Of a stretch of DNA of 64,000 bases, positions 9,144 through 40,534 are shown in pieces. The stretch comes from Pseudomonas guangdongensis (lineage in GTDB: Bacteria; Pseudomonadota; Gammaproteobacteria; Pseudomonadales; Pseudomonadaceae): contig NZ_LT629780.1 of NCBI RefSeq assembly GCF_900105885.1, forward strand, positions 682,001 through 746,000, written 5' to 3'. The notes beneath the pieces are model-generated. The model was not told the DNA's origin, did not search any database, and worked only from the letters and a program-made list of their open reading frames with translations. The stretch's first letter is position 1; the number at the start of each line of letters is the position of its first letter. The position numbers and the translations under genes are program-made.

Positions 9144-9408
9144 TCAGTGCTTGGTCAGCTTGTCCACGTAGGCCATGGCGAAGGCCGACACCACGAAGGT
9201 CATGTGGATGATCACGTACCAGAGCAGCTTGTCGTTATCGATCTTCTGCGCGTCCATGAACATGCGCAGCAGGTGGATCGAGGAGATCGCCACGATGGAG
9301 GACGCCACCTTGAGCTTCAGCGAGCCGGCATCCATCTTGCCCAGCCAGTCGAGCTTCTCCTTGCCCTCGTCGATATCCAGCTGGGAAACGAAGTTCTCGT
9401 AGCCGGAG
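9144..9408 (-). pseudogene. yqhA: yqhA (UPF0114), 3' part separated from its start by the island
   Basis: The last 85 codons of a UPF0114/YqhA inner-membrane protein are present, from [17 protein letters not shown] to the end AYVDKLTKH, including the last two membrane helices ([17 protein letters not shown] and [18 protein letters not shown]). The 5' part (77 codons) lies at 40529-40758. Joining the two across the shared CTCCGG gives a continuous 162-residue protein of family length with no lesion, so the disruption is due only to the insertion. An ATG inside the island could give a hybrid N-terminus ([10 protein letters not shown]) to this fragment, but the first helices would be missing. 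Confidence 0.95.
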
Positions 9409-9419
9409 CAGTCGAAATG
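9403..9419 (+). repeat. left attachment site of the island (core CCGGAG plus terminal repeat)
   Basis: CCGGAG (9403-9408) is the 6-base core also found at the right border. The next bases, CAGTCGAAATG, are the left terminal sequence and match the right terminal sequence read inwards (CAGTCCGAATG) in 9 of 11 positions. The interruption point in yqhA fixes the border. Confidence 0.85.
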
Positions 9420-9531
9420 GACAGACGCATGGACATCGCCTCTGGGCCTGAAAACACGCGGCTTTTGACACCCGCAATACAAGTCCATATGGACATGAGA
9501 TGTATGTGGACAGAAACGCGATCAATGTCCA
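9418..9531. repeat. cluster of TGGACA repeats at the island left end
   Basis: TGGACA occurs at 9418, 9430, 9490 and 9507, and inverted (TGTCCA) at 9526. The copy at 9490 is half of a 12-base palindrome GTCCATATGGAC (9483-9494). Five copies in about 115 bases next to the border suggest sub-terminal binding sites for a recombinase or accessory protein. This is inference from position. Confidence 0.5.
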
Positions 9532-9883
9532 TATCCTATGCGCCCCTGCTGTTCATCCTTAAGAGACTGTGGCAGGGCGGCCCGGTCCTGTTCCTCTGCG
9601 AGCTCGCGCTTCCAGTGGGCGACTAGGGCGTCGACTCGGTCGTGGATCTGCGGGGGCTTCGATAGAACCAGACCTAACCCCTAGCGGACCCAAGCCACGC
9701 GCGGCCAGTGGCGACTGGCAGATATCGGCCAGTAGCGGACGTTCATGGATATCTACAAAGACTGGGCGACTCAGTCAGCGGGCACCGATTTCGGGAAACT
9801 AGAACATCAAAGTTCTACCCTACTTTCGTTATTTTAGATAATTTGCTAAATCACCAAAATCAAACTTCAATTTAGGAACCTTG
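9532..9883. other. non-coding stretch before abiH
   Basis: I see no convincing gene in this roughly 350-base stretch. It contains two TAGCGGAC words about 50 bases apart and an 18-base inverted repeat TAGAAC-ATCAAA-GTTCTA (9800-9817) about 67 bases before abiH, where an operator would be expected. Composition shifts from GC-rich to AT-rich near 9815. Confidence 0.4.
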
Positions 9884-10786
9884 ATGGATACACAAATCCT
9901 CTACGTCATCGGCAACGGCTTCGATCTCCACCATGGTCTGCCTACCCAGTACAAAAATTTCAAAGCATTCCTGAATATGGTCGATCGGCAGGTATTTGAC
10001 TGGATAGATACTTATGTTCCCGCGGATGAGGATTGGTCTGATCTTGAGCTTGCCCTGGCCGATATGGACACCGAAAGCGTCGTCTCCGATCTGACTGGTT
10101 TCCTTGCGTCATACGCTGACGAGGATTGGAGCGACGCGGGGCATCATGATTTCCAGTACGAAGTTGATCGGGTCGCCACCGGTTTATCGAAAACGCTGCA
10201 ATCACGATTCGGTGATTGGATCAGATCCATCGTAGTTCCAGACTGCAGTCCAATCCATCAGCTACTGGGTACGTTGGATAGGAACGCCATATACCTGACC
10301 TTCAACTATACCAGCACGCTGAGCAAGCTGTATGACGTCCCAGCAGAGAATATCCTGTATATACATGGTGAAGGCGCTGAGCCTGGCTCTGAACTGATTC
10401 TGGGCCATGCATGGACTCCAGATGAGCGTACGTCGCTTCAGAAAGGCCTTGATGGAGAATCAGCAGACCATCGGGTAATGGAGGCGCTCGGCAGATTGGA
10501 TGACTACTTCGAGCAGACCTTTAAGCCAAGCGAGCAGATCATCAAGCTCAACGCGGACTTTTTTTCAAATCTGCGATCAGTCACTCACGTGACTGTGCTT
10601 GGCCACTCCCTTTCGTCGGTGGATAAAGCATATTTCCTCGCGATGGTCGAGGCGCTGGAGAGGCGACCTGTAATCTGGACAGTGGCGGTCAGATCGCATG
10701 ATGACGACACTCACAAAATTCAGTGCCTCAATGATTTCGGAGTTCCCAGAGAGCAGATCTACTGCAAACTCTGGTCGGAGCTATAG
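9884..10786 (+). CDS. AbiH-like abortive infection protein
   Basis: The 300-residue protein opens with YVIGNGFDLHHGLPTQYKNF, the hallmark N-terminus of the AbiH family, and near the end has the family motif VLGHSLSSVDKAYF. Between them lie LTFNYTSTL and YIHGEGAEPGSELILGHAW. AbiH-type proteins abort lactococcal phage infection by an unknown mechanism, so this is a probable anti-phage gene. ATG with an AGGAA box at 9874-9878 is taken as the start, although a TTG lies one codon earlier. It stands alone near the island left end and is more AT-rich than the host genes. Confidence 0.85.
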   Translation: MDTQILYVIGNGFDLHHGLPTQYKNFKAFLNMVDRQVFDWIDTYVPADEDWSDLELALADMDTESVVSDLTGFLASYADEDWSDAGHHDFQYEVDRVATGLSKTLQSRFGDWIRSIVVPDCSPIHQLLGTLDRNAIYLTFNYTSTLSKLYDVPAENILYIHGEGAEPGSELILGHAWTPDERTSLQKGLDGESADHRVMEALGRLDDYFEQTFKPSEQIIKLNADFFSNLRSVTHVTVLGHSLSSVDKAYFLAMVEALERRPVIWTVAVRSHDDDTHKIQCLNDFGVPREQIYCKLWSEL

Positions 10787-10847
10787 TGTGTGGTGAGGTG
10801 CCTGCCTGGCCACTTGCAGTGCTAAGCCAGGTCGTGCCACGCCCTAG

Positions 10848-11903
10848 TCAATCCTCGCGCATGAATTTCTCATAAGAATAAGCGTGATAGGAACACAGCC
10901 CACCATTGTCCTGATCGTCTTGCCCCAAGCTCTCCTCACAGATCTTGCATTCCGTGTATTCGAGCTCAGCGGAACACCACAGGCAGGACTGCTCATGGAT
11001 GAGGAACGCTCCCCGACCGCATTGATTGCAGTCCTCAAGGGTGGGCTCATCACCGTCGCGCGGGTCGTAACTATGGGCTTGCTGTAGCGCGTCGACCATG
11101 AGCGGGGCTATCAAGGCTGTGTATCCACAGGCGATACAGGTTGCCTTAAAACGGTCATCGTTGTGTTCAACGGTATCGCCTGCATCTAGGCTTTCTTGCG
11201 CAGGCGCTAACAAAGTGGAACCGCATTCCGGGCACTTTGATTCTTCCAGCCAGGGCTCCATTCCTTCTGGCACGCAAGCATCAGACCATGCATCTTCACA
11301 TCGTTTTGTGGTATCTACAAAGAAGTTGTGATGCAACAGCATGAGTTGCCAGGCATCCCCGAGGATTGCTGCTGGTGACTCTTCCAGCTCCGTCTGAATA
11401 AAATCCCGTAGCACTGGGAACAGCTCCGCCACGAAATCGGCGACCTCACCTAGCGTGTGAGCGGGATGCAGGTGCTCCAGATGGTTGCGGCACGCCTGTA
11501 GCTTTTCGATCACAGCCCAGTCGACATCGATCTCAAAAGCTTCGAAGCGCTTTTGGATCGTTACCACATCGATTGTGGTGGACTTGAACTTGCCCACCGG
11601 CACCCATTCGATACCTCCATCGCCATCTGAGTGAGGCAAAACCTCAGGTGGATTGAAGATTAGAGCGTCAGCATCAGCGGGGTCATCGACACACGTAGCG
11701 ATTTTGTACTTGAACAGGAGTAGTACTCCTGCGAAGAGATTCCGGATAGCCGAGAGCGCCCGCGCTGGATCGCCCCCTGGATGTCTGCAGCGCTCGAAGT
11801 CCTCAACGCCTAACCGAATAGAGGTAAGTGCGTTCTCGCGAAGCTTGGCGGCATCAAGCCTCGGCATCGGGCGTTGGGGAGCCATATGATGATTTTCCTT
11901 CAC
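10848..11903 (-). CDS. HEPN-like protein with C-terminal zinc ribbons
   Basis: I do not know a named family for this 351-residue protein. The N-terminal half is helical (SAIRNLFAGVLLLFKYKIA) and contains ACRNHLEH, which fits the R-x4-H catalytic motif of HEPN ribonucleases. The C-terminal part has several Cys pairs: CPECG...CIACG, CNQCG...CLWC and CKIC...CSYH, a string of zinc ribbons. A role as a nuclease effector in defence would fit its neighbour AbiH, but this is inference. An ATG six codons downstream (MAPQRP) is an alternative start. Confidence 0.65.
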   Translation of the reverse strand: MKENHHMAPQRPMPRLDAAKLRENALTSIRLGVEDFERCRHPGGDPARALSAIRNLFAGVLLLFKYKIATCVDDPADADALIFNPPEVLPHSDGDGGIEWVPVGKFKSTTIDVVTIQKRFEAFEIDVDWAVIEKLQACRNHLEHLHPAHTLGEVADFVAELFPVLRDFIQTELEESPAAILGDAWQLMLLHHNFFVDTTKRCEDAWSDACVPEGMEPWLEESKCPECGSTLLAPAQESLDAGDTVEHNDDRFKATCIACGYTALIAPLMVDALQQAHSYDPRDGDEPTLEDCNQCGRGAFLIHEQSCLWCSAELEYTECKICEESLGQDDQDNGGLCSYHAYSYEKFMRED

Positions 11904-12243: not shown

Positions 12244-12259
12244 AGTAGTTGGGATCAGC

Positions 12260-13500: not shown

Positions 13501-13965
13501 CTACCGCTGATGGGAGATGCCTCCTGAGTGCGCGCAGCGCACGTGATTGCCCTCGCTCGTTTCGCCTTCGCATAACGGCTGCGACAATTCGTGGAGGATG
13601 CCGCAGTGGGCGGCGGCACTCGGCTCGTTGCAGCACTCACGCAAGCTCTTGAGCTGTTGCTCCAGCTGGCGGAGCTCCTCGATGCGTGCGGTGACATGGC
13701 CGATGTGCGCGTCCAGCAGGGCATTCACATCGGCGCAGTGCTCGCTGGGAGCATCCTTGAAGTGGAGCAGTCCCCGAATCTCGGCGTGTGTCATGTCCAG
13801 CATGCGGCAACGGCGAATGAAGGACAGCCTTTCGACATGCGCTTCGGTGTAGATGCGAAAGTTGCCGTCGCTGCGGGCGGGCGAGGCGAGTAGCCCCTCG
13901 CGCTCGTAGTAGCGGATGGTTTCGATCTGGGTGCCCGTGGTACTGGCTAGCTCACCGATTTTCAC
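13501..13965 (-). CDS. cadR: CadR/PbrR-type MerR regulator
   Basis: This 154-residue regulator senses Cd/Pb/Zn and activates the divergent cadA. The start is taken at GTG (VKIGELASTTGTQIETIRYY), the canonical MerR N-terminus; an upstream ATG would add 32 unmatched residues. The metal-binding cysteines are in place: EHCADV at the start of the long helix, then CCNEPSAAAHC, the CadR/PbrR spacing. The tail HVRCAHSGG is His-containing as in CadR. The shared intergenic region holds a MerR-type dyad. Confidence 0.9.
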   Translation of the reverse strand: MKIGELASTTGTQIETIRYYEREGLLASPARSDGNFRIYTEAHVERLSFIRRCRMLDMTHAEIRGLLHFKDAPSEHCADVNALLDAHIGHVTARIEELRQLEQQLKSLRECCNEPSAAAHCGILHELSQPLCEGETSEGNHVRCAHSGGISHQR

Positions 13966-14015
13966 GTTGGTCTCCGATAGCCGGGTCTGGTGACTCCTAT
14001 TTGCAGCATAGGCTC

Positions 14016-14045
14016 TTGACTCTGTAGTCGCTACAGGTTGTTTAC
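14016..14045 (+). promoter_or_regulatory. MerR-type operator/promoter of cadA
   Basis: TTGACT (14016-14021) is a -35 element. It is followed at once by the dyad CTGTAG-TCG-CTACAG (14022-14036), which fills the long (19-20 base) spacer expected of MerR-family promoters. CadR should bind here and untwist the spacer when metal is bound. Confidence 0.8.
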
Positions 14046-14073
14046 TCGTGTCCAACGTCATTGGGGGTACAGC

Positions 14074-16473
14074 ATGGGTGAGTGCAACGCTGTTGGGTGC
14101 GGTTGTTCCACTGCGTCGTCAGCGGAACCGAAGAGTCTTGCCACCGGAGCGGGCAAGACTGTGCAGTACCGCATCGACAACATGGACTGCCCCACCGAGG
14201 AACGGCTGATTCGCGACAAGCTGGAGCCGCTCGCCGGGGTGACAGGGTTGGAGTTCAACCTGATGCAGCGCACGCTGACGGTGAACCATCAGCTCGATTC
14301 GTTGGAACCGGTCGAAGCCGGATTGCGCGCCATCGGCATGCAGGCCCAGCGTCTTGCCCTTCCAGCCGAGCAGGTGTGCACGGTGTTGACCATCGCGAAG
14401 ATGTGTTGCCCCACCGAGGAACGGCTGATTCGCGACAAGCTGACCGGAATGCCCGGCGTCGAGTCCCTGGACTTCAATCTGCTGCAACGCCGTTTGACGG
14501 TCACGCACCGTCCCGAAAGCCTGAATGCCATCTTGGGCGCGCTGACATCCATCGGCCTCGAAGCCAAGGTCGAACCGAGCGTTGCCAACGACACCGCCGA
14601 GCCGTCTACCAGCCCCCGCCATTGGTGGCCACTGGCCGTGGCGGGCGTGAGCGCGACCCTGGCCGAGGTCGTGCACTGGTTGAACGGTGGCAATCACTGG
14701 CTGGTCGTGGCGCTTTCCGTGCTGGCGATTGCGGTAGGCGGACTCTCGACCTACAAGAAAGGCTGGATTGCCCTCAGGAACCGCAACCTGAACATCAATG
14801 CGCTGATGTCGATTGCCGTTACCGGGGCGATGCTCATTGGCGAGTGGCCGGAGGCGGCCATGGTGATGTTCCTGTTCGCCCTGGCCGAGGTGATCGAGGC
14901 CCGATCGCTCGACCGTGCGCGCAACGCGATTCGCGGCCTGATGGAACTCGCTCCGGAAACGGCCACCGTCCAGCAACCGGATGGCACGTGGCTGGGTGTA
15001 CCCGCCAGACAGGTGGCAGTGGGAGCCACGGTGCGTCTGCGCCCGGGCGAGCGAATCGCGCTGGATGGCGTGGTGACCCAGGGGCACTCGAGCGTGAACC
15101 AGGCTCCGATCACCGGCGAGAGTTTGCCGGTGGACAAGACCGTGGGTGACAGCGTGTTTGCCGGGACGATCAACGAGACGGGGTCGTTCGAATTTCGGGT
15201 GACGGCCGAAGCCAGTCACTCGACGCTATCCCGGATCATTCATGCCGTCGAATCCGCCCAAGGGAGTCGGGCGCCGACCCAGCGCTTCGTCGACCGCTTC
15301 GCGCAGATCTATACGCCGACAGTGTTCCTGATCGCCTTGCTGACCGCGGTGATGCCGCCGTTGTTCTTGTCCGGCGAGTGGATGGACTGGATCTACAAGG
15401 CGCTGGTGCTGCTGGTGATTGCCTGCCCCTGTGCACTGGTGATCTCCACGCCGGTATCCATCGTCAGCGGCCTGGCTGCGGCCGCACGCAAGGGCATTCT
15501 CATCAAGGGCGGTGTGTACCTTGAGGAGGGTCGCAAGCTGGCCACGCTGGCACTCGACAAGACCGGCACCATCACCCATGGCAAGCCGGTGCAGACCGAC
15601 TTTATTGCTTTGCGCGGAGACGAGGCCCGGGTTCACGCCCTGGCGGCCAGCCTCGCTGCGCGCTCGGATCATCCGGTATCCCACGCCATCGCCCTGGCGG
15701 CAAACGAAGCCGGCTTGGCGTTATACCCGGTGACCGATCTGGCTGCCATTCTGGGCCGTGGCGTGCGTGGCCGTATCGACGATCATCTGTACCAGCTGGG
15801 CAACCACCGGCTGATCGAGGAGCTGGGTCTTTGCTCGGAAGCCATCGAGGCGCAACTGTTTGCCCTGGAGCGCCAGGGCAAGTCGGTGGTGCTGCTGGTC
15901 AACCAGCACGAAGTCCTGGGCATTTTCGCGGTGGCCGACACGGTGCGAGAAACCAGTCGCGAAGCGATCAGCGAGCTGCACGCCCTCGGGGTGAAAACCC
16001 TGATGCTCAGCGGCGACAACATCCATACCGCCGAAACCATTGCCCGCTCGGTCGGCATCGACGAGGCTCGCGGTGGGCTGCTGCCGGAAGACAAACTCAA
16101 GACCATCGAAGGGCTGATGACGAGTGGCAAGGCCGGTGCGGTCGGCATGGTGGGGGACGGGATCAACGATGCGCCCGCGCTGGCCCGGTCGAGCATCGGC
16201 TTCGCGATGGGAGCGGCGGGGACGGATACCGCCATCGAGACGGCGGACGTTGCGCTGATGGACGACGACCTGCGCAAGATTCCCGCATTCGTCCGGCTTT
16301 CGCGGGCGACCACCACGGTGTTGCGGCAGAACATCGCTTTCGCCCTCGGGATCAAGGCGGTTTTCCTGCTGCTGACGTTCACCGGGCAGGGCACGCTGTG
16401 GATGGCGGTGTTTGCCGACGCGGGGGCCAGTTTGCTGGTGGTGGCCAACGGGCTGCGGTTGCTGCGCAAGTAA
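14074..16473 (+). CDS. cadA: P1B-type Cd/Zn/Pb-exporting ATPase with two HMA domains
   Basis: CadA pumps divalent metals out across the inner membrane. The 799-residue protein has a Cys-rich tip (CNAVGCGCST), two heavy-metal-associated domains (IDNMDCPTEE near residue 36 and IAKMCCPTEE near residue 110), then eight membrane segments. The transport motif is ACPCALVIS (about residue 450), with phosphorylation site DKTGT (about 495), the TGES loop and VGDGINDAPA (about 692). The CPC and HMA types fit the Zn/Cd/Pb subgroup. The ATG at MGECN is used; a TTG 12 codons upstream lies in the promoter. It is divergent from cadR. Confidence 0.93.
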   Translation: MGECNAVGCGCSTASSAEPKSLATGAGKTVQYRIDNMDCPTEERLIRDKLEPLAGVTGLEFNLMQRTLTVNHQLDSLEPVEAGLRAIGMQAQRLALPAEQVCTVLTIAKMCCPTEERLIRDKLTGMPGVESLDFNLLQRRLTVTHRPESLNAILGALTSIGLEAKVEPSVANDTAEPSTSPRHWWPLAVAGVSATLAEVVHWLNGGNHWLVVALSVLAIAVGGLSTYKKGWIALRNRNLNINALMSIAVTGAMLIGEWPEAAMVMFLFALAEVIEARSLDRARNAIRGLMELAPETATVQQPDGTWLGVPARQVAVGATVRLRPGERIALDGVVTQGHSSVNQAPITGESLPVDKTVGDSVFAGTINETGSFEFRVTAEASHSTLSRIIHAVESAQGSRAPTQRFVDRFAQIYTPTVFLIALLTAVMPPLFLSGEWMDWIYKALVLLVIACPCALVISTPVSIVSGLAAAARKGILIKGGVYLEEGRKLATLALDKTGTITHGKPVQTDFIALRGDEARVHALAASLAARSDHPVSHAIALAANEAGLALYPVTDLAAILGRGVRGRIDDHLYQLGNHRLIEELGLCSEAIEAQLFALERQGKSVVLLVNQHEVLGIFAVADTVRETSREAISELHALGVKTLMLSGDNIHTAETIARSVGIDEARGGLLPEDKLKTIEGLMTSGKAGAVGMVGDGINDAPALARSSIGFAMGAAGTDTAIETADVALMDDDLRKIPAFVRLSRATTTVLRQNIAFALGIKAVFLLLTFTGQGTLWMAVFADAGASLLVVANGLRLLRK
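14188..14442 (+). repeat. 36-base identical direct repeat inside cadA (HMA motif)
   Basis: The 36 bases at 14188-14223 and 14407-14442 are identical and encode CPTEERLIRDKL in both HMA domains, while the sequence around them has diverged. This points to recent gene conversion or selection on the metal site. Confidence 0.85.
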
Positions 16474-16676: not shown

Positions 16677-17189
16677 ATGCTTGTTCTTGACAAGAAGCTC
16701 TCGTCGCATGCCATATTGTCTCTCTCCGGCTTGATAGCAGCGTCGGACCAAGGTGTAAAGTGGATAGTCCAGCAGTCAATGGGTTATGGCGAGTCTCTTC
16801 CAGTGACTCCGTTCCTTAACTGGGTACACGTTTGGAACACCGGTGCCGCATTTAGTCTTTTCGCTGATGGTGGAGGCTGGCAGCGCTACTTTTTTATAGG
16901 GATCGCGGTATTGGTCTCGATTGTGCTTATCAAATTTATCCGAGACAATCGTCATAAAGGGGAAGCCATCGCTTACTGCCTGATCCTCGGTGGTGCTACA
17001 GGTAATCTGATTGACCGGATATTCCGTGGCTATGTTGTGGACTACCTTGATTTCTATTGGCGATACTGGCATTGGCCGGCCTTCAACCTCGCCGACATTG
17101 CAATTGTCCTCGGTGCATTTCTTATCGCTTCCGTAAGCTTGTTACGTGGGAAATCAAATCTCAATGTCGAGCCAGATGGGGCTGCCTGA
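16677..17189 (+). CDS. lspA: signal peptidase II (LspA), island copy
   Basis: LspA cleaves prolipoproteins in the inner membrane. The 170-residue protein has four membrane segments and the catalytic aspartate motifs GGATGNLIDRI and FNLADIAIVLG, plus the conserved WNTGAAFSLF. AAGGA precedes the ATG. It is more AT-rich than the metal genes around it. LspA copies travel with ISL3-family elements such as ISPpu12, and an ISL3 transposase relic follows immediately, so this is an accessory copy rather than the housekeeping gene. Confidence 0.93.
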   Translation: MLVLDKKLSSHAILSLSGLIAASDQGVKWIVQQSMGYGESLPVTPFLNWVHVWNTGAAFSLFADGGGWQRYFFIGIAVLVSIVLIKFIRDNRHKGEAIAYCLILGGATGNLIDRIFRGYVVDYLDFYWRYWHWPAFNLADIAIVLGAFLIASVSLLRGKSNLNVEPDGAA

Positions 17190-18060: not shown

Positions 18061-18193
18061 TCGGCGAGGCGACTCCTCTCTCCCGTACCCACTCAACGAC
18101 CATCGTCAGCGACGATGAGCGTTGGCGTGCTGCGAGCCAGCTGATGGCGTCTCGCCGATTCCCCGTGAGCTTTTTCATCACTGGAGAGTCGGG

Positions 18194-19483
18194 ATGTTCC
18201 CAAGCAAAACCAGAAAATGGCTGCCCTGTGCCTTGCTCGTGCTGGCCACCGGCAGTTCGTTGGCGCAGACAGCGCCAAGTGCTTCCAGCCTGCAGTCGGT
18301 CACTGCCGGTCCTTTATCGCTGAAGCAAGCCTTCGATACCGCTTGGGCGCGTCAGCCCGAAGCGGAGTCCTCGTCTGCGCGTCGTGAGGCGGCCACTGCC
18401 CGTCGCGCCGCCGCCGCCAGCTGGACCGCCGAGCCCATGGCCCTGGAGCTGTCGAGCAAAGGCGACCAGCTCAATGGCAACGATGGTAGCCGCGAGCACA
18501 ATGTCGGCCTCGCCATCCCCCTGTGGCTGCCCGGCGAGCGCTCGCGGACGGGCGCCGTGGCCGAGGCCGAGGCCCAGTCCACCGCCAGTCGCGCCTCGGC
18601 TGCGCAGCTGCGTACTGCTGCCGAGGTGCGCGAGGCGTACTGGCAGTGGCAACGCAGCCGGGTCGAAGCGAGCCTGGCCCGCGAGCGCGAGGGCAATGCC
18701 CGACAGCTCGCTGCCGATGTCGCCAAGCGGGTCAAGTCGGGTGAGCTGGCCCAGGCCGATCAGCACCAGGCCGAGGGGGCTGCGGCTTTGGCCGAGATCG
18801 AAGCGGCGCGAGCCACGAGTGCGCTGGCGACGGCTGCGCAGCAGTTGCGCAGCCTGATCGGCACCCTGCCGGGTGGTCGCGAAGAGGCTGCGTCTGGCGT
18901 AGTTGCCGGTGAGCCGGTACCCGCGCTGCCCGCCGACTTCGCTGTGCTGGATGCCCAGCATCCGGCGGTGGTCGCACTGCTGGATCAGGCCGAGGTCGCT
19001 CGCCGCTCGGCCGAGCTGGCTCGCGTGCAGACCCGAGCCAATCCCGAGTTGACCTTGTCTACCAGCCGCGAACGCGAGCCGGGGGAGTCCTATGACGAAA
19101 GCCTCACCTTGGGCATTCGCATCCCCTTCGGCTCGGGCAGCCGCAATCGCGCCAAGCAAGCCACGGCCGAGGCCGAAGCCATCGAAGCCGAGGTGCAGGC
19201 GCGTCTGGCGCGTGAGCGCCTGCTCGGCGAGCTGGAGGCCGCCCGGCTGGAGTTCGAATCCGCCCGCGCCCAAGTGACTGCTGCCGATAAGCGTGCCCGG
19301 CTCGCCCAGGAGTCGCGCGGTTTCTTCGAAAAATCCTTCCGCCTCGGCGAAACCGATCTGCCGACGCGCCTGCGTATCGAGCTCGAGGCAACCGACGCCA
19401 AGCGTCAGGCCGCTCTGGCCCGACTCGATCAGGAGGCGGCGACTTCCTCACTGCGCCAGGCACTGGGTCTGCTGCCCGAATAG
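18194..19483 (+). CDS. czcC: outer-membrane factor of the efflux system (CzcC)
   Basis: A TolC-family protein of 429 residues with a signal peptide (PCALLVLATGSSLAQ) and two long alpha-helical repeats with many Ala, Glu and Arg. It should form the outer-membrane channel for the CzcBA pump. The ATG at MFPSKTRKW is chosen because the signal peptide begins there; the frame is open upstream. It is followed by a His-rich membrane protein and then czcB. Confidence 0.9.
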   Translation: MFPSKTRKWLPCALLVLATGSSLAQTAPSASSLQSVTAGPLSLKQAFDTAWARQPEAESSSARREAATARRAAAASWTAEPMALELSSKGDQLNGNDGSREHNVGLAIPLWLPGERSRTGAVAEAEAQSTASRASAAQLRTAAEVREAYWQWQRSRVEASLAREREGNARQLAADVAKRVKSGELAQADQHQAEGAAALAEIEAARATSALATAAQQLRSLIGTLPGGREEAASGVVAGEPVPALPADFAVLDAQHPAVVALLDQAEVARRSAELARVQTRANPELTLSTSREREPGESYDESLTLGIRIPFGSGSRNRAKQATAEAEAIEAEVQARLARERLLGELEAARLEFESARAQVTAADKRARLAQESRGFFEKSFRLGETDLPTRLRIELEATDAKRQAALARLDQEAATSSLRQALGLLPE

Positions 19484-19512
19484 GGCCAGAACGAACCTAC
19501 AGGACTGCAAAG

Positions 19513-20055: not shown

Positions 20056-20064
20056 AGGTGTTCC

Positions 20065-21174: not shown

Positions 21175-21188
21175 AGGGAGCCTGACCC

Positions 21189-32598: not shown

Positions 32599-33805
32599 GG
32601 GCACCTCTAAAAACACACATCTGAGCTGAGCCAGACAGTGACGAGCACAACTCCTGGCATCCGAGTGCCGGGGGACGTGCTCGCAGAACATCCTTCGGCC
32701 GGTCGCGATACGCGACCGGTAGCCTGGCTCAGGCCAGTTCCAGCAGACTCGACATCCGCTTGAGGTTGTAGACCGCCGATTTGACCATCAGGCCAAACTC
32801 CGCACGGGCCAGGCCAATGCTCCGGATCATCTTGCCGCCCATCTGGGCGAGGCTGGCGAAGACATGCTCGACTCGAGCGCGGGGGCTGGCTATGCGCTTG
32901 TTCCGTGCCTTGCCCCGCTCACTGATGGGCTTGCCGGCCTGGCCCTTGCGCTGGATATGCGGCCGCCAGCCGATCATCTTGAGCCAGCGCTCCCGAGGCC
33001 CGTCGTGGTAGCCGCGATCTGCCCAGAAGTCCCGGCTGCTGTTATTCCGGTCGAGCACATCCACCAGATGCCGGGTGTCTGCCTCGCTGGCATCGCTCAC
33101 CCGCACGCAGCGGATCAGCTTGTGCCGACGATCCACGCTGACCGACAGCTTGTAGCCGAAATACGACTTGCCGTGCTTCTTCGTCCAGCGCGCATCGGCA
33201 TCCTTTTGCCGGCGCTTGGCCGGCGACCACTCGATCGGTACGGCCTTCTCCTTCACCACGGCCTGTTCGTCGGCCGTGTTGTGCTGGGTCGGTGCGCGAA
33301 CAATGCTGGCATCGATGATCTGTCCCTCGCGGGCTCGGAATCCGTACTCCTGCAACTGGCGCTGTACCTCGGCAAAGATCTGGTGCTCGACATTGGCTTG
33401 CACCAGACGCTCGCGAAAGACCCAGATCGTGTTGCGATCTGGAACCCGGCCGGAGTGTTTCAGTCCGGCAAAGCGCTGGAAGCTCATGCGGTCGAGCAGC
33501 TGGAACTCCATTTGCTCATCGGACAGGTTGAACAGCTGCTGGAGCACCAGCAGGCGAGTCATCAGCTCTGTCGGATACGGTGGCCGACCGCCCTTGGCCC
33601 GGCTGGGCCTGGGAGCCCAGCGATCGATTTCAGCAGCCAGGGCAGCAAAGCCCACATGCTTGTCGAGCAGGGCCAATGGATCGCCCAGGCTGTCCAGCTT
33701 GGCTTCACGTTCCTGGTCGGCAAACAGGCTCAACATCAGCAGACTCCGGGTGGTCAACGGGACGGCGATTTTACCCGGAGGTGAGCCTGGTTTTTAGAGG
33801 TGCCC
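32599..33805. mobile_element. IS5-family insertion sequence, 1207 bp
   Basis: GGGCACCTCTAAAAAC (32599-32614) and its perfect complement (33790-33805) bound a single transposase gene. The flanks read CTAT before and ATAG after, which is inverted rather than a direct target repeat, so the insertion was probably followed by a deletion or rearrangement. It truncates the endonuclease I gene on its right. Confidence 0.9.
32729..33757 (-). CDS. IS5-family DDE transposase
   Basis: The 342-residue protein has an N-terminal DUF772-type domain (LVLQQLFNLSDEQMEFQLLD, SFQRFAGL) and the DDE residues in IIDASIVRAP, FWADRGYHDG and RVEHVFASL. It appears intact, so the IS may be active and could also move the nearby MITE. 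Confidence 0.93.
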   Translation of the reverse strand: MTTRSLLMLSLFADQEREAKLDSLGDPLALLDKHVGFAALAAEIDRWAPRPSRAKGGRPPYPTELMTRLLVLQQLFNLSDEQMEFQLLDRMSFQRFAGLKHSGRVPDRNTIWVFRERLVQANVEHQIFAEVQRQLQEYGFRAREGQIIDASIVRAPTQHNTADEQAVVKEKAVPIEWSPAKRRQKDADARWTKKHGKSYFGYKLSVSVDRRHKLIRCVRVSDASEADTRHLVDVLDRNNSSRDFWADRGYHDGPRERWLKMIGWRPHIQRKGQAGKPISERGKARNKRIASPRARVEHVFASLAQMGGKMIRSIGLARAEFGLMVKSAVYNLKRMSSLLELA

Positions 33806-34364
33806 CATAGCGGTCGTGCATATAGAAGTAGATGCGGGCGACTTGACCCTTCACTTCGTTGCGCGGCTCGGTGATGCGCTGCTTGAAGTCGGTTTTGGTC
33901 GAGCAGGTGCCGTACTGCTTCGCGGTCGATGGCAGCATACCGAACTGGAAGTTGCTGCGATCACCATTGACCTCACCGATGCTCGGCGAAAGGTTGTGCA
34001 TGTCGGCTTCCATCGTGCGGAAGACAAGATCGGTGCTTTTGCAGTTCTCCCGCCCGCCGTTCTGCCAGCACTGACGCTGGTGGCCCAGCACCCAAGCAGG
34101 CACGACATGCTCCCACTCGATGCGTCGCGCTCTGTTCTGGTCGGCCCGCACCTCGTACCCGCACGCTGCCAGGTCTACTCGGCCACCAGAGCGCCCCATC
34201 CACCGCCAGTCACAGCCACAATACAGCTCACCGTCATCGTTACGGTCGAAGTAGACAGTCCTGCGCAGCTCGATCTTGGCTTTCTCGAATGACTGAGGGG
34301 CAGCGATGCTTGGGAGGTGGAAAAGCCCGGCGATGACGGCCAGACCAAAAAAGAGAACTTTCTT
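33806..34364 (-). pseudogene. endonuclease I (EndA/NucM-like), 3' end removed by the IS
   Basis: A secreted DNA/RNA nuclease: signal peptide VKKVLFFGLAVIAGLFHLPS, then LRRTVYFDRNDDGELYCGCD, the catalytic His motif ARRIEWEHVVPAW, and MHNLSPSIGEVNGDRSNF. The sequence ends at HDRYG against the IS, where family members continue for a few dozen residues, and the matching end is not found beyond the IS. The core active site is kept, so residual activity is possible. A GTG start is taken at the signal peptide; an ATG 16 codons earlier is the alternative. Confidence 0.85.
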
Positions 34365-34444
34365 CACGAAGAGCCTTATGAAATTGGTGATGTGTATGCC
34401 CTGCGGGCACATCTTACAATTGGCAGCTCAACCGTCAGAGGCAA

Positions 34445-34497
34445 GTTAACAACAGCTGCCGATAGTGCTGCGAAAAACTGACCTGATAGCTCGGCTC
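34445..34497 (-). pseudogene. relic of a second helicase 3' end; 42-base repeat copy B
   Basis: On the minus strand this reads TEPSYQVSFSQHYRQLLLTC and a stop, almost the same as the last 20 codons of the intact helicase gene 4.4 kb away. The 42 bases 34456-34497 match 30011-30052 with two mismatches. No more of a second helicase gene is visible upstream. Confidence 0.85.
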
Positions 34498-34594
34498 AGT
34501 AAGTTTCCACAGGAAATTTTTCGAGCATTTTTCGGACCACATAATCGCTGAGAGCCGCAATGATACTTTACTGTCCTCCTACGCCGGCCGCTGC

Positions 34595-35035
34595 TCAATG
34601 GAGGTTGCCCAACGGCACAACATTGCTGTGCTGTTTTTCGGCGGTGATTTCACTGATCTTTTGTTTGAGCGAGTCATTCTCATGCTGGAGAGAGTAATTC
34701 TCCTGCGCCAACGTCGCAATCTCTTGAAGGGCAAGCTCATATTCTGCCTTAAAAACGTTTAGCTGATCTTTTGCTGCTTGCTTGAGGGCTCTCTGCTTCT
34801 TCGCGTCTTCTGATGCAGACAGCCTGGAAGACTCTTGCTGCACCGCCGCTGCTGCCGCCTCGATTTCGGCAATCAACTCCGCGTGTTCAGCCCGACTCTT
34901 CTTGATCGAGCCACGCTTGCGGCCGGCCTCCAAGGCCACTGTGTCTTTATTGATCGCAGAGCCTTTCGGTACGCTTTTCGGCTTCCCTTCGATCAGTCGC
35001 CGTAGGGCTGCGCGATAATTATCAACTGCACTCAT
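34595..35035 (-). CDS. small coiled-coil protein of the recombinase operon (GmtX/TnpC-like)
   Basis: The 146-residue protein begins MSAVDNYRAALRRLIEGKPK, has a basic middle (AGRKRGSIKKSRAEH) and a long coiled coil (about residues 65-135). Its ATG overlaps the stop of the preceding recombinase gene (ATGA). A small helical last gene after a set of large tyrosine recombinases is the layout of Tn554 (TnpC) and of the gamma-mobile-trio module (GmtX). It may help in site choice or orientation. Assignment is from layout rather than from a matched motif. Confidence 0.65.
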   Translation of the reverse strand: MSAVDNYRAALRRLIEGKPKSVPKGSAINKDTVALEAGRKRGSIKKSRAEHAELIAEIEAAAAAVQQESSRLSASEDAKKQRALKQAAKDQLNVFKAEYELALQEIATLAQENYSLQHENDSLKQKISEITAEKQHSNVVPLGNLH

Positions 35036-37038
35036 GCCATCGCCTCCATTTTCTCCAGCAGACCGGTCTTCTCCAGCTTCTCGTAGATCGCTGAAATTTC
35101 GGATTCAAGTTGTTTGTACTGAGGATTCTCCACCGCGAACAGGGATTTCTCACGCTTCAGGTTATCCAGACCGCGCCGGATATTTTTCAGGCTGCGGTCG
35201 TCATCGAGAATGGAATTCTCGCAGTCCATGCACGCAAATATGCTGGTGAAGGAAATCTTGTCGCAGGGTTCGAGGTTGGTACAGCCACCAATCGGGCCGA
35301 TCTTGTAGACCATTTCGCCTTTGAGGAACTTCTTTTCAGTCATAGCTCGGTCGGTCGTAATGATGAGTGGCTGGCCTTTATCGCGTGCTACTTGAATGCG
35401 ATTGCCTTCCCCGCCCCAAAGCCGACTGGCGCTATTGATTACATTTGCTTCGTAGTTGATATATTGCGACTTGAGGCGTTCGCACTCCAGCTCCTCCATC
35501 CAGCCTTGTGCTTCGTCTGTTTGCAGAAAGTTCACGGCAAAGGCGCTGCCCTTCCGGTAGTACGAGGTCATAACTTCGGTCAGATGCTTGAATTGCAGAC
35601 CCAATGAACCGACTGAAACCATCCCTGAGCGCGCCGCATAGACGGCCAGCGAGCGCCGGCACTGGTGAGTCGCCAGCGGCCAGGGCTGACCGATTTGAAC
35701 GTCAGGGTCGTTTCGCCAATCCCGAAAGCCATCAAACTGCTCCAACTCACGAATATCTGCTTCCTGCACAATTATTTCAGGCCACCGTGAAAATAGTCGT
35801 TTTTTTCTTACCAACATAGCGCGCCCCCCCGCCACGGGAGAGCACTTAAATTCCCGGTAATCATTGGAAAATTTAAGCGAAGGAAAGAGTGGAGACTTAC
35901 TTAAGTCGGTGTAATCAAGATCGTTCCACAGCGCAGTGATCTCCCCGACACACCGAGCCGCGACAACAGCTTTCTCAGCAGCGGGCGTAGTTATCCAGAA
36001 TGTTTCCGTCTGATTTTGACCGGCGACCTTCGACGTATAACCGCGCAATATCGAAAAATCTGCGCCGGCCATTTCAATAGTTTGATAGGCGTCAGCTGGA
36101 AGACATCGGGCTTCATTATCACGCATACCCGAAAAAAAGTGAATCCAGTATTTTGCGGCGCATTGAATCTCACCAACATACTTACGCAGGTCGGCACCGT
36201 CCGCAATTGAATACTTCTCAAACAACGAACGCAACCCAAAAAGTGAAACCAAGTCCGACCAGACAACACCCTCTTTATAAAGGTACATTCTAGCTTCAGA
36301 CACGCCGAATCGCGGGTTTTCTTTCCGCTTCCGGCAAAACGCGACTAGCGCATCGCGATGCTCATTGAAGGCATCTAGCTCAGAATTGATTGCCGCAATA
36401 AAAGCAGCGTAGATTCTGGTCGGAATCAGCTTGGTTTGTTGCTGCTCACCATTACCCCACTTGGAACTCTTATCGTAGATCGCCTGCATGAGTTTAATAG
36501 GCTCATAACTGGCCGGTGCAATCGTAAAATCAGGGTGTTTTACCCGGAATTCAAATATCTCTTTGAGAAAAGTAAGCATGCGACCCATAGCATCTCGCTC
36601 TAGGAGCGCAAAGCTTGGCAGAAAAAATCGATTGATATTTTCGCTCTCAAATAGTTGAGTCAGTGACAGATTATTTCTGAACGACAGATACACCAGCTTT
36701 CTAAGGGTGCTCATTGTTAATGACACAGGCTTGCGCGGCATTGGAAATAAATACATTCGCGCAAATTGAATGCACTTCATTTCCTCGACAATGACCGTAG
36801 CCAGCGGATTTTCCGAACCATCGGCCCAACTAACGAAGTCATAGATGCAAACGCCTCTGGCGTCGTACATCTTCATATTCCACACATTATCTTGATAGCG
36901 CGAAACAACCTCGCCCGTCGCCGCGCGCGAGATTACAAAATCACCGCCAACGGCAAGGTGGTCCGATTCGTTGGCGTAGCTATCGGGCAACTGATGCTGT
37001 TGCCACTGGTTAAGCTGAAGATAGGCGATAATGCTCAC
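35032..37038 (-). CDS. large tyrosine recombinase/integrase with intact catalytic residues
   Basis: The 668-residue protein has tyrosine-recombinase boxes FFSGMRDNEARCLP (Arg I), THQCRRSLAVYAA (His-x-x-Arg) and FKHLTEVMTSYYRK (His and Tyr), so the catalytic set is complete. Downstream lies a probable zinc site (GGCTNLEPC...ACMDC) and a C-terminal coiled coil. The GTG start is used because it overlaps the upstream stop by four bases (GTGA); the frame is open 15 codons further. It is the third gene of the operon and AT-rich compared with the host. Confidence 0.85.
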   Translation of the reverse strand: MSIIAYLQLNQWQQHQLPDSYANESDHLAVGGDFVISRAATGEVVSRYQDNVWNMKMYDARGVCIYDFVSWADGSENPLATVIVEEMKCIQFARMYLFPMPRKPVSLTMSTLRKLVYLSFRNNLSLTQLFESENINRFFLPSFALLERDAMGRMLTFLKEIFEFRVKHPDFTIAPASYEPIKLMQAIYDKSSKWGNGEQQQTKLIPTRIYAAFIAAINSELDAFNEHRDALVAFCRKRKENPRFGVSEARMYLYKEGVVWSDLVSLFGLRSLFEKYSIADGADLRKYVGEIQCAAKYWIHFFSGMRDNEARCLPADAYQTIEMAGADFSILRGYTSKVAGQNQTETFWITTPAAEKAVVAARCVGEITALWNDLDYTDLSKSPLFPSLKFSNDYREFKCSPVAGGRAMLVRKKRLFSRWPEIIVQEADIRELEQFDGFRDWRNDPDVQIGQPWPLATHQCRRSLAVYAARSGMVSVGSLGLQFKHLTEVMTSYYRKGSAFAVNFLQTDEAQGWMEELECERLKSQYINYEANVINSASRLWGGEGNRIQVARDKGQPLIITTDRAMTEKKFLKGEMVYKIGPIGGCTNLEPCDKISFTSIFACMDCENSILDDDRSLKNIRRGLDNLKREKSLFAVENPQYKQLESEISAIYEKLEKTGLLEKMEAMA

Positions 37039-38990
37039 GACACGGCTCCTAGCGTAACCAGTGTATCGAAGTGGATAGCCCAAAACTCATCAAGATCACC
37101 GGATTCGACTTCTTCGCGTACCCGGTTGATCGTTGATTGACTGTCGCCATCAGCGTCTTGCATGGCTGACAGCACTTCGTCAATGCGATGAACAGTCGGG
37201 CCGAATTTGCTTTGCCAATGGTCAATGGGTTGTTTGTGTTTAATAGACTGGATCAAGTAACGCAACGACAGCAGGCGTCGCATATCCTCTTCGTCGGCGT
37301 GAACCGCATAGAACTCACAGAACAAACAGGTTTCAGGGTCGCGGCAAGTGGGCGTGGGTGCCAGCTCAGTAAAGCCCTGGGCGCGCTCTGGCTGCGTCTC
37401 AGGCGCTTTCTCACACGCCCCTGCTCCCGTCACGGCCTCGGGTCTCTTTTCGTCGAGGATACGCACTGGAATTCGCTCTACAGTGCGCGTGCGATCAACC
37501 GCCGCCTGGTGCATCGCCTCAAAGAAACTGGCCATTTCCCCGGCGAAGTCCTCTAGGGCGGGCCGGCTGTAGGCTTGGCGAACCATGTCTTCGGTATTGC
37601 TGAGTTTTTCGGCGGTCAGCGTCATATCGCCACCGCTCAACTTCACATATTGATAACTAACATTTTTCCGCCACTGTCTGGGCGTGACCCACATTGTTCG
37701 GGGTAGCGTTTTAGAAAAGAGCATCCTGAGCGCATCGATAGAGGAACCGCCGACCTGCGTAATTCCATGTTTAGCAGATAAATACGGAAACACCAGCGCA
37801 CTATCGCTACCGTTCAAAACCCACTCGCGCAATTTAAGATATTTCTGGAATACTGGCGCGAACCGCAGTCCGAACTCTGGCACAACGGTTTTTCCGCCGG
37901 CCCGCCCCTTGGTTCCTGAGAAACGCTTACCTTTCGTACTCGGCACAAATTCAAGCGTATCGACCTCAAGCGCTTGAGCAACACTCAGATTGCAACCTGT
38001 AGCGGCGATAAATGCCAGCATGCCCGCCACTACGGCATGATTACCAAATCTCTGCCTAAGAGCAGATCGAAAGTCCTTGTTGTTTTTTTCATACATCCTT
38101 CTTGATGACCTGTAAGCGCCTCTTGCGCTTTCTATAGCTTTTCTATCGTCGACCAGCCCAAAGTGCACTTTTACTTGGTCCAACGTAGGAAATACCGGGG
38201 ATTTGAGCAGCAGGTTCGCAATACTAAAGTCTGCGGTCTTAGTTCTCCCGCTATCAACCTCCACTGTATACAGATAGCAGGACTCGCCGCTGGGTGAGAC
38301 GAGATGCAGCGGCACCTCTCCATTTCCAACCAGGATGCGATGTGCTTCATCAATAAAACTGAGCAGGGTGGCGAATGTCTTTGCCTGCTCATCGGCACTC
38401 GGGAGTTTCAGGTTTACATGGCTCGCCTGATCGCGTCGCTTAGTAATTAAAGTGGTAATACCCTTGACCTCAGGCTCACTAAGGCCTGTTGCAAGCCTCA
38501 CCACTGTTAGCGCACCGGATTGATATTGCGATGCAGTCACTTGTTTAAGTGGTTGCCCACCGATACCCGAGCTATTCACTCGATGCAGCAAATTCCGCGT
38601 ATATTCGCAATAGGCGTTCTTCATAGACGCGACATTATCAAAATAATAGGGCTGCTCTTGAACGTCTAGCCAGTCAACAAAATATCTGCTCAATACGAAT
38701 TGGTGAATTGCTCTGGAACTACTTTGGGACAGTCTCAACTCCTCGATTAGCGCCCGCACGAAGGGGATTCGAGAATTGTCGAGCGACGAAATATCGACCG
38801 GAGTGCCGATCTGCTGATTGGTTGACCTATTCCGACGTCGGTAACAGAGAGCGCCCACATCAATGTATAGCGGGCCTGGGTCAACGGGATTGTCAGCCGC
38901 CAATACAGCAAGCTGCGGCTGGATGACCTCAATATTTACATCCTTGTAGTCGACGGTGATGACCTGGCGCTGAACAAACTCATTGCTCAT
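37035..38990 (-). CDS. large recombinase-like protein with degenerate active site
   Basis: This 651-residue protein is related to tyrosine recombinases but unusual. The Arg I box reads ATGCNLSVAQALE with no Arg. Box II reads TPRQWRKNVSYQYV with Pro in the His position but Arg kept. The last box reads LSNTEDMVRQAYS with a possible Tyr. A Cys-rich motif follows (CRDPETCLFC), then HADEEDMRRLLSLRYL. It may be a structural or site-binding partner rather than a catalyst. Both ends overlap neighbouring genes by four bases. Confidence 0.8.
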   Translation of the reverse strand: MSNEFVQRQVITVDYKDVNIEVIQPQLAVLAADNPVDPGPLYIDVGALCYRRRNRSTNQQIGTPVDISSLDNSRIPFVRALIEELRLSQSSSRAIHQFVLSRYFVDWLDVQEQPYYFDNVASMKNAYCEYTRNLLHRVNSSGIGGQPLKQVTASQYQSGALTVVRLATGLSEPEVKGITTLITKRRDQASHVNLKLPSADEQAKTFATLLSFIDEAHRILVGNGEVPLHLVSPSGESCYLYTVEVDSGRTKTADFSIANLLLKSPVFPTLDQVKVHFGLVDDRKAIESARGAYRSSRRMYEKNNKDFRSALRQRFGNHAVVAGMLAFIAATGCNLSVAQALEVDTLEFVPSTKGKRFSGTKGRAGGKTVVPEFGLRFAPVFQKYLKLREWVLNGSDSALVFPYLSAKHGITQVGGSSIDALRMLFSKTLPRTMWVTPRQWRKNVSYQYVKLSGGDMTLTAEKLSNTEDMVRQAYSRPALEDFAGEMASFFEAMHQAAVDRTRTVERIPVRILDEKRPEAVTGAGACEKAPETQPERAQGFTELAPTPTCRDPETCLFCEFYAVHADEEDMRRLLSLRYLIQSIKHKQPIDHWQSKFGPTVHRIDEVLSAMQDADGDSQSTINRVREEVESGDLDEFWAIHFDTLVTLGAVS

Positions 38991-40447
38991 ACAAGGCCGT
39001 CCGCGTTAGCCGCTGTGTTCACATGCTTGAATAACTGAGACTCAAATTCATGCTGGACGCTGTTTTTCCATTGCAGGCGAGACTTGTAATTCAAATACTG
39101 CATGGTTGTTTCTTTGCTAGAGTGCCCCATGCGCTGTTGAACGTACTCCAGCGCCGCAGTAATGCGCTGGTCGCCCATATGTTTCAGCTGACTTTCGAGC
39201 AGGTTCATACCGAAGCTTGCGCGCAGATCGTGGAACGTAAAGTCCTGAAAGCTCGGATTTTCGGAATAAATACGGGGCAGCAAAATTTCACGAATATGCT
39301 GTCGCAGTGACGCGCCATCCTGAATTGAAACATTCAGAGCCCGATCTGACATGCCGGCCTTCCGGCTCACACTGGCATCGCGCCTATCGTAGATCTCTTT
39401 TTTGCTCGTGTAGTAGGGGATGCCATTCCTGCTTAGAAAAACGTAATTGTCTTCCGTGTCACCGTAAAACGAGCGCTCTCGCCGCTTGATGGCTTCCGGG
39501 CTGCGGGAATAAATCAACATATCTTTGACCAGCCATTCAGGCACAAGCAGTTGCATCGGCTTTCCGCGCTTCGTGTCAATCTCCGTGCCGTGTCCTATGG
39601 GTAGCCTTAAATCTCCATCACCATCCATTTTTCCTTTGAGGTGCTTGACGCGCATGGTGCCTACAGTTTGGATTCGCGCCCCCGTAAATAGTGCAAAGTA
39701 AAACATCAACTGATATTCACGCGAGGAAGCCAGCAGCGCTTTAAGAACACTCTCCTGATCCTCGACCGTTAGGGGGCGCAACTCGCCACCGTCATTGATA
39801 TAGTCTGATTGCCGCTGCTTCTTCGGCGTCGAAATGGTGAGATTGTGCGACTTGATCTTTATGGAATTCTGGATGCCATACTGTGAGGTCACAGTGATGT
39901 GGCGCCCGACTTCCTCAAAGGGAGCATTCTGAATCAGACTTCTATCAACCAGATTCCAATTCATGATTTCACGATAGAAGTTCACTACGGCGTTAATGCG
40001 CGCCTTAGCATTGCTGGCGGACAACTCGCCATTCCTCAATTGTTCTTCGAGTCGCCGCTTGTAGCGAAACGTGACTTTGAGGCGATCATTCTTCGGTAAA
40101 CACAAATAATCCAATTGTTCATCTTCAAGGAAGCGAAGATAGTCCAGCAGATGATCGGCAATGCCTCGAAAGGTTCTCGACTCATACCCACTTTCATTTT
40201 TGAGCTTATTTGTGAGGTAGAGATTTCCGATTCTCCAAGGCCGGCCATCACCCTGAATTAGAATTGGGAAGTTTGGGTAATACCCGTCCTCATCGGCTGA
40301 GAACACATAATCAGGCACGCCATTGGGATTGCCATCATGATGCGTCGAAAGGAACTTTATTTTCTGGAAGCGGAACTCAGGAATCAGTACGCGCCGGGCG
40401 CGGGACTCGTAGCGACTTTTTCCGGTCTTTATCTGATTGCGTGACAT
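38987..40447 (-). CDS. tyrosine recombinase (first gene of the island operon)
   Basis: The 486-residue integrase has Arg I in ALFTGARIQTVGT, HDLRASFGM (His-x-x-Arg) and RMGHSSKETTMQYLNYK with the His and catalytic Tyr, all intact. An N-terminal core-binding region with many Arg/Lys residues precedes it. It is read leftwards from the right border of the island and leads a chain of four genes joined by 4-base overlaps. It should catalyse the strand exchange at the 6-base core. Confidence 0.9.
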   Translation of the reverse strand: MSRNQIKTGKSRYESRARRVLIPEFRFQKIKFLSTHHDGNPNGVPDYVFSADEDGYYPNFPILIQGDGRPWRIGNLYLTNKLKNESGYESRTFRGIADHLLDYLRFLEDEQLDYLCLPKNDRLKVTFRYKRRLEEQLRNGELSASNAKARINAVVNFYREIMNWNLVDRSLIQNAPFEEVGRHITVTSQYGIQNSIKIKSHNLTISTPKKQRQSDYINDGGELRPLTVEDQESVLKALLASSREYQLMFYFALFTGARIQTVGTMRVKHLKGKMDGDGDLRLPIGHGTEIDTKRGKPMQLLVPEWLVKDMLIYSRSPEAIKRRERSFYGDTEDNYVFLSRNGIPYYTSKKEIYDRRDASVSRKAGMSDRALNVSIQDGASLRQHIREILLPRIYSENPSFQDFTFHDLRASFGMNLLESQLKHMGDQRITAALEYVQQRMGHSSKETTMQYLNYKSRLQWKNSVQHEFESQLFKHVNTAANADGLV

Positions 40448-40480
40448 CGGACGACGTCCTCAGCAGCGTCATTTGTCCGC

Positions 40481-40509
40481 ATTGTAGATCCTGCTGACTG
40501 CGGTGCCTA
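40481..40509 (-). promoter_or_regulatory. predicted promoter of the recombinase operon
   Basis: On the minus strand TAGGCA (40509-40504) and TACAAT (40486-40481) lie 17 bases apart, about 34 bases before the ATG. The promoter is inside the island right end. A short palindrome GGACG-A-CGTCC (40449-40459) nearby could be an operator. Confidence 0.5.
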
Positions 40510-40517
40510 CACACCTA

Positions 40518-40534
40518 CATTCGGACTGCCGGAG
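40518..40534 (-). repeat. right attachment site of the island
   Basis: CCGGAG (40529-40534) repeats the core at 9403-9408. The inner bases, read inward, are CAGTCCGAATG, matching the left terminus in 9 of 11 positions. Confidence 0.85.

Follow-up and report, generated by a model that had tools for sequence, protein, structure and literature searches.

The class of mobile elements recently described as SEs provides the closest published counterpart of the element analysed here (PMC10214605, PMC9345347; here and below, statements about published systems refer to the parts of the cited papers that we consulted). When an SE inserts, the target's own 6 bp remain beside IntA and the 6 bp carried in by the element come to lie at its far end (PMC10214605). 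The terminal inverted repeats of SEs are imperfect and 13-19 bp long, and most SE core genes of Pseudomonas lie in plastic regions in which the ends were not found (PMC10214605). Two other described systems, GInt elements and Tn554, the latter reported from Staphylococcus and Enterococcus (PMC10214605), resemble SEs in part and are weighed below. The subject of this report is an island of about 31 kb that interrupts yqhA, a gene of the UPF0114 family, in a stretch of 64,000 nucleotides from Pseudomonas guangdongensis (contig NZ_LT629780.1, positions 682,001 to 746,000; "the window" below, with positions counted from its first letter). We conclude, with a probability of roughly 0.85, that this island is a new SE. 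Its main value is that its relatives establish the ends and display the 6-bp rule from sequence alone.

The interrupted yqhA gene

The borders of the insertion and the two parts of the target gene are as follows.

9144-9408, minus strand: C-terminal half of yqhA (UPF0114) with one copy of the 6 bp (Pfam PF03350 positions 64-117; unbroken in 7/7 congeners)
9403-9408, unstranded: attR, the 6-mer at the footprint position, on the border away from IntA (minus-strand reading CTCCGG)
9409-40528, unstranded: the whole element, 31,120 bp (G+C contrast)
40529-40534, unstranded: attL, the 6-mer native to the target, on the border next to IntA (minus-strand reading CTCCGG)
40529-40758, minus strand: N-terminal half of yqhA with the other 6-bp copy (Pfam positions 1-69; translation)

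The sequence CCGGAG stands at both borders (9403-9408 and 40529-40534) and encloses 31,120 bp (9409-40528), the net insertion being 31,126 bp, and yqhA is interrupted at codons 75-77. Its halves match the Pfam profile UPF0114 (PF03350) over positions 1-69 (right half) and 64-117 (left half), and the N-terminal frame runs for 76 codons before it reads into the element as GSPNVGV and a stop. An earlier interpretation made from the letters of this stretch (the sequence-only reading) had proposed that joining the halves at CTCCGG restores a UPF0114 protein of 162 residues; indeed, the joined flanks give an open, unbroken frame of exactly this length. It had further claimed that the ends of the 31-kb island can be read to the base and had called for a comparison with relatives possessing an intact yqhA. 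A 489-nt query spanning the junction is unbroken over 486-489 nt, at 90-93% identity, in all seven congeners examined, and falls into two main pieces in the genome carrying the island. Because yqhA is unbroken in 7/7 congeners, the insertion is confirmed as real and not a product of chance, and the claim of a precise island withstood the comparison.

At the intact junction, read in six of the seven congener loci (L032 left out), the 6 bp are CTCCGG in four cases and TTCCGG in two. UPF0114 was matched in 133 of the 390 genomes of the order, with a split into two pieces solely in the genome studied, and no second UPF0114 copy was found in the latter. The target is a protein gene and not a tRNA gene, as already pointed out by the sequence-only reading, and no tRNA or tmRNA gene was found in the window. 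The element differs from the remainder of the window in its G+C content (59.4% vs 68.5%), and its host, a gammaproteobacterium, fits the SE host range.

A C-terminal UPF0114 fragment (profile positions 65-115) that begins at the same codons (SSYENF) was encountered in another genome (L051, G477:C223, ~923-1075, minus strand). Its surroundings are unrelated genes, and no element end was recognised there by eye; the fragment is possibly a scar of another event at the yqhA site.

Core genes and the SE class

Four genes with open frames sit together at one end of the element, in the order intA-tfp-intB-srap.

38987-40447, minus strand: IntA, tyrosine recombinase of 486 aa, active-site motif complete (Pfam Phage_integrase 1.1e-8; motif alignment)
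37035-38990, minus strand: Tfp, 651 aa, altered active site within a tyrosine-recombinase fold
35032-37083, minus strand: IntB, a long tyrosine recombinase of 683 aa, active-site motif complete (motif alignment; 77 bits to SE IntB)
34595-35035, minus strand: small Srap-like protein of 146 aa (matches WP_023443007.1 at 46% over 59 aa)

According to the motif alignment, IntA and IntB possess the full RHRY motif, and Tfp is devoid of Arg I and of the His of HxxR. IntB had no match in Pfam, and a PDB sequence search with a Tfp profile gave no match; Tfp has the tyrosine-recombinase fold expected of this protein in an SE. An alignment of 46 of the 67 Tfp homologues retrieved from the protein database shows that its active site is altered in a consistent manner: Arg I is replaced by Asn in 46/46 sequences, the His of HxxR occurs in 0/46 and the second His (His III) is Asn in 44/46, and the hairpin Lys, Arg II and the Tyr are each kept in 46/46. 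Annotation terms such as "site-specific integrase" do not separate catalytic from non-catalytic recombinase genes.

As the SE reference we used a plasmid stretch of Pseudomonas shirazica (L005) that carries the accessions WP_034039553.1 and WP_023443007.1, which are named as the Tfp and the Srap, respectively, of one SE of the SE-PaeBT2436 type (PMC10214605). All four core proteins match their L005 counterparts (IntA with 101 bits, Tfp 53, IntB 77 and Srap 49). The direct link of Tfp to the SE protein is weak and is bridged by the homologue at locus L068, which scores 89 bits with the Tfp studied here and 310 bits with the SE Tfp. Of 16 further places in Pseudomonadaceae with an IntB match, 14 have a frame of Srap size after IntB (gene outline only); of the two exceptions, L054 has a Srap match in an unlisted frame and L066 is broken. 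With regard to mobilisation genes, which an SE is expected to lack, no relaxase was found among those island proteins, a part of all its frames, that were scanned with Pfam. One further class, RIT elements, was considered and rejected: their three recombinases are 315-410 aa long and all have the tyrosine (PMC10214605, Table 1, archetype), and those of the yqhA element measure 486, 651 and 683 aa.

The three large recombinase-like genes had at first led us to regard the island as a GInt element. GInts share its general outline: three recombinase-like genes accompanied by one small gene at one end, cuts staggered by 6 nt, targets in conserved genes and large cargo (PMC5385486), and 31 kb is nearer the GInt median of 34.9 kb than the SE median of 15.7 kb (PMC10214605). 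A profile comparison of IntA with GinA likewise gave 91.7%, but the other eight of the nine profile pairs reached at most 16.3% (the Srap/GinD pair was outside the comparison). Two points led us to drop the GInt assignment, which we now consider very unlikely: the non-catalytic gene is the second one here and the third one in GInts (PMC5385486, PMC10214605), and blastp at 1e-3 returned no match between the four core proteins and the ssb element of Escherichia coli (L077), whose GInt label is our deduction from its position at ssb, the outline of its genes and its Avs4 cargo, and not from a published GInt sequence.

The sequence-only reading had likened the island to Tn554. A transposon of this type would account for a site-specific insertion in a protein gene, for a 6-bp signature and for the combination of an ordinary and a long recombinase with a small protein. 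However, a fourth core gene, tfp, lies between intA and intB, for which Tn554 has no counterpart (PMC10214605), and all four proteins match those of SEs. Membership in Tn554 is thus not borne out, and we give it hardly any credence.

Sister elements, the 6-bp rule and the element ends

A scan of genome contigs returned four relatives of the yqhA element, namely in Stutzerimonas sp. S1 (IntB identity in the best segment 66%), P. wadenswilerensis CCOS 864 (63%), P. lurida 114A4 (60%) and P. bharatica CSV86 (45%). In the first three (loci L050, L047 and L048, respectively) a phoD-like gene is interrupted, at the same codons each time, and its halves lie on either side of the element. Their 6-mers at attL (CGATGA in S1, CGACGA in P. 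wadenswilerensis and P. lurida) are phoD sequence, and those at attR are CTTGCG, CTTCTG and CCTTGG, in the same order. A survey of phoD matched 27 of 31 genomes and listed 20 loci, the twentieth being the S1 insertion itself; in the 19 unbroken Stutzerimonas loci TTYGAYGAYCACGAC is present at the site without exception, and the 6-mer is CGAYGA in 18 of them and TGACGA in one. In the three sisters the IntA side therefore keeps the 6 bp of the target, and 6 bp of foreign origin lie on the far side, which is the published SE rule. Related elements with base-exact ends thus display the SE 6-bp signature in nature, together with a difference in target between relatives.

The terminal features are listed here.

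9409-9419, plus strand: terminal motif C' (CAGTCGAAATG) (9/11 to motif C)
40518-40528, minus strand: terminal motif C (CAGTCCGAATG) (end alignment, first 75 bp)
40490-40500, minus strand: second C-like copy (CAGTCAGCAGG), 28 nt inward of motif C (by eye, end alignment; clearer in the sisters)
9418-9423, 9430-9435, 9490-9495, 9507-9512 and 9526-9531, unstranded: five TGGACA hexamers, candidate arm-type sites (5 observed)
40474-40479, minus strand: degenerate hexamer CGGACA, +49 from the near end (one-letter variant of TGGACA)

The two 11-base ends, noticed in the sequence-only reading as an imperfect inverted terminus, agree at nine of 11 positions. Ungapped comparison over the first 75 bp placed the best fit at shift 0 for the IntA-side ends of all of five relatives, namely those in S1, P. 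wadenswilerensis and P. lurida, the plasmid element L004 of P. aeruginosa and the element of genome G804; they agree with the yqhA element at 37-49 of the 75 positions, against a mean of ~19/75 over shifts up to 60. For the distal ends (last 130 bp, ungapped, slid by up to 60), shift 0 is best in two of three sisters, S1 (58/130) and P. lurida (72/130). The distal end of the P. wadenswilerensis element matches at 111 of 123 positions, and its distal ~290 bp are 88% identical to those of the yqhA element. The absence of the same borders from sister elements had been named in the sequence-only reading as an outcome that would speak against it; the element ends proved to be common to the sisters, and the target gene did not.

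The hexamer TGGACA occurs five times in the last 350 bp, compared with 0.17 in mononucleotide shuffles. Its offsets from the far end are -123, -104, -87, -27 and -15 in the yqhA element, -122, -104 and -87 in S1, -104, -87 and -27 (plus -237) in P. lurida, -123, -104, -87 and -27 in P. wadenswilerensis and -27 (plus -76) in CSV86, these counts being linked by common ancestry and hence not independent. At +49 from the near end, where the yqhA element has the degenerate form, TGGACA is present in S1, P. lurida and P. wadenswilerensis, and it is inverted in L004. We regard these hexamers as candidate arm-type binding sites; in the consulted main texts of the two SE papers (PMC10214605, PMC9345347), none of the terms "arm-type", "arm site" and "binding site" occurs. 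TGGACA is also found near the IntA end in distant relatives, just before position 3930 in L005 and near IntA in L084, and the hexamer may be class-wide. A motif before the 6 bp on the left flank (GATGNTCTT), noticed by eye in four targets, was set aside because the cases are too few.

Targets were sought in more distant relatives as well. The G804 element (~40% IntB identity) has its near end inside a DUF808 gene, the other half of which was not found within 40 kb, and for L004 the near end falls in a different reading frame; in yqhA, phoD and the DUF808 gene alike the cut falls within the gene. The near ends of the elements in G670, G996 and G770 could not be resolved, and none of the relatives with ends read lies in yqhA. 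Since near-identical distal ends occur with different targets, the sequences suggest that target choice may lie in the recombinases rather than in the ends. The nearest protein relatives (up to 80% identity in Tfp) are mostly on short metagenome contigs, and a scan of viral contigs gave no relative. Close IntB relatives at 1e-90 are confined to the host genome itself among the 390 of the order, and the genera of G080 and G212 contain five in 398 genomes and one in 56 (G212 itself), respectively.

Several observations weigh against the SE assignment. First, both 6-mers of the yqhA element are CTCCGG, which a classical integrase would give as well, and identical 6-mers in this element alone cannot separate an SE from an element with a phage-type integrase. 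A conventional integrative element, entering and leaving through an identical 6-bp core in the phage manner, would explain this identity, but the two 6-mers differ in three sisters with homologous ends, so that an identical core is not required; we judge this explanation highly improbable. The 6-base core reported by the sequence-only reading therefore stands as an observation (CCGGAG at both borders), and not as a requirement, and its view that the 6-bp behaviour is nearer to Tn554 than to a phage-type integrase is borne out by the differing 6-mers of the sisters. As agreement of an arbitrary far 6 bp is expected in 1 of 4096 cases, the simplest reading under the SE rule is that the previous home was yqhA-like too, i.e. 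the last donor site would also have been a sequence of this kind.

The remaining points concern both the homology and the comparison of elements. Identity to the reference SE is low (~23-24% in IntA, Tfp and IntB, and 46% over 59 aa in Srap), and the blastp E-values of that comparison come from a database of only 48 proteins. The invariant Tyr and Arg II of Tfp (46/46) clash with the published description of Tfp as a protein without catalytic residues (PMC10214605). The terminal inverted repeats, with 10/13 and 11/19 matches, are at the weak edge of what is described for SEs. In CSV86 only the C-terminal half of phoD was found, the N-terminal half was not, the core genes are decayed and the distal 6-mer, TGATGG, is tentative; its distal end matches at 36/130 positions at shift 0 and at 51 at shift -13, a misfit in keeping with the decay of its core genes. 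Unbroken phoD was read in Stutzerimonas only, a sample outside which the Pseudomonas hosts of two sisters fall. Finally, no circle, strand bias or transposition was seen in this analysis of sequences.

It is conceivable, and compatible with the SE assignment, that the island is a remnant no longer able to move. Past rearrangement is evident from an IS5-family gene and from a 63-nt duplication next to Srap, and core genes are broken in some relatives (IntB of L004 and Tfp of L047 are each in two frames, and L049 is decayed). Against this, none of the four core frames is interrupted, and the element agrees with its sisters at both ends; we hold the loss of mobility to be possible, though unlikely.

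If the yqhA element follows the published SE model, IntA and IntB would cut and join around a 6-bp spacer, with Tfp and Srap completing the complex. One strand at the IntA-proximal end would be joined to the other end, and a circle with the 6 bp of the left flank would be copied out; upon insertion, the target's own 6 bp would remain beside IntA and the carried 6 bp would be deposited at the far end. Strand bias, copy-out and present-day mobility are what we infer for this element. The strict retention of Tyr and Arg II in Tfp seems surprising for a protein free of catalytic duty. An altered Tfp protomer might bind, perhaps be cleaved, and be unable to finish the exchange, so that only one strand would be joined, and one-strand joining of this kind could produce both the strand bias and the copy-out cycle of SEs. 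Taken jointly, a doubtful but specific proposal would be that Tfp is an altered, not a dead, recombinase behind these two properties and that target choice is set by the recombinases, not by the ends. The related elements with base-exact ends make two questions testable: what governs the choice of target in SEs, and what restricts the exchange to one strand.

The consulted main texts of PMC10214605 and PMC9345347 do not mention yqhA, and that of PMC10214605 does not mention phoD either. A literature search with yqhA gave no such element among the matches listed; either target may stand in the supplementary lists of SE sites, which were outside the scope of this search. As far as we found in main texts, yqhA has thus not been reported in print as an SE target, and, as far as we have seen, the sister elements are not named in print.

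Cargo, other operons and known systems

The cargo of the element joins efflux and phage-defence genes.

9881-10786, plus strand: AbiH abortive-infection protein (Pfam 7.7e-67; PADLOC AbiH)
10848-11903, minus strand: candidate defence protein PDC-S64 (PADLOC 1e-33)
13501-16473: MerR regulator (minus) and P-type ATPase with heavy-metal-associated domains (plus) (Pfam)
16677-17189, plus strand: signal peptidase II, LspA (Pfam 1.2e-41)
18122-24308, plus strand: outer-membrane efflux protein and RND pump, czcCBA-like (Pfam OEP, ACR_tran; the frames 19513-21174 between them lay outside the scan)
24848-27266: DsbB, DsbA/thioredoxin-like protein, sodium bile acid symporter family transporter (minus) (Pfam)
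27552-28109, plus strand: serine resolvase (Pfam Resolvase 2e-38)
29990-31381, minus strand: RadD-like helicase (Pfam ResIII and Helicase_C above cut-offs; NCBIfam RadD 9.2e-13, below cut-off)
32729-34412, minus strand: IS5-family transposase and endonuclease I gene, adjoining the core genes

The two defence genes, AbiH and PDC-S64, sit at the far, IntA-distal end. Judging from family and gene order, the efflux genes are probably metal-specific. A 63-nt direct repeat, 86% identical (29990-30052 vs 34435-34497), brings the 3' end of the helicase gene to a second place beside Srap, perhaps as a trace of cargo addition; a search for repeats within the island revealed no nested transposon with clear ends.

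SE-like operons were encountered in several other settings. The 3' end of hrpB directly precedes such an operon in five places (L058 and L061-L064; checked with Pfam in two), and in L007, L010 and L065 the operon, in unrelated surroundings, is preceded by no more than the last ~15 hrpB codons, as if the hrpB tail were carried on the element end and mended the target at insertion. Cupriavidus necator pHG1 (L008) and Paraburkholderia plasmids carry genes resembling those for Tfp, IntB and Srap, arranged in this order; according to the consulted parts of PMC10214605, Betaproteobacteria have no Tfp or Srap homologues. An operon of four genes (385, 536, 614 and 137 aa) in NZ_CP047312.1 (L075, 311571-316593), whose three large proteins have weak similarity to the yqhA element and to other SE-like operons, is perhaps a further branch. 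The GInt-like element L077 (E. coli WCHEC005215, 9264-18261) carries four genes of the GInt outline beside Avs4 and lies at the 3' end of ssb, a GInt site in other species (PMC5385486); the query for this site is covered to at least 80% in one place in 4,930 of 5,376 matching E. coli records, and some of the remaining 446 may be occupied.

Compared with known systems, the yqhA element shares with Tn554 the 6-bp signature and a protein gene as target, and differs from it in having Tfp (PMC10214605), a distinction drawn from the description of Tn554 and not from its sequence. With L077 it has in common the recombinase-like genes and small gene at one end and the defence cargo, whereas no core protein is similar by blastp at 1e-3. 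The SE of the SE-PaeBT2436 type (L005) agrees in the order of the four genes, the active-site pattern, the homology of the proteins and the TGGACA near the IntA end, and differs in its cargo and in the ~23-24% identity of the large proteins. Finally, the sister elements of S1, P. wadenswilerensis and P. lurida are alike in IntB (60-66% identity), in their ends and in the hexamer positions, and unlike in their phoD-like target and in having flanking 6-mers that differ from each other.

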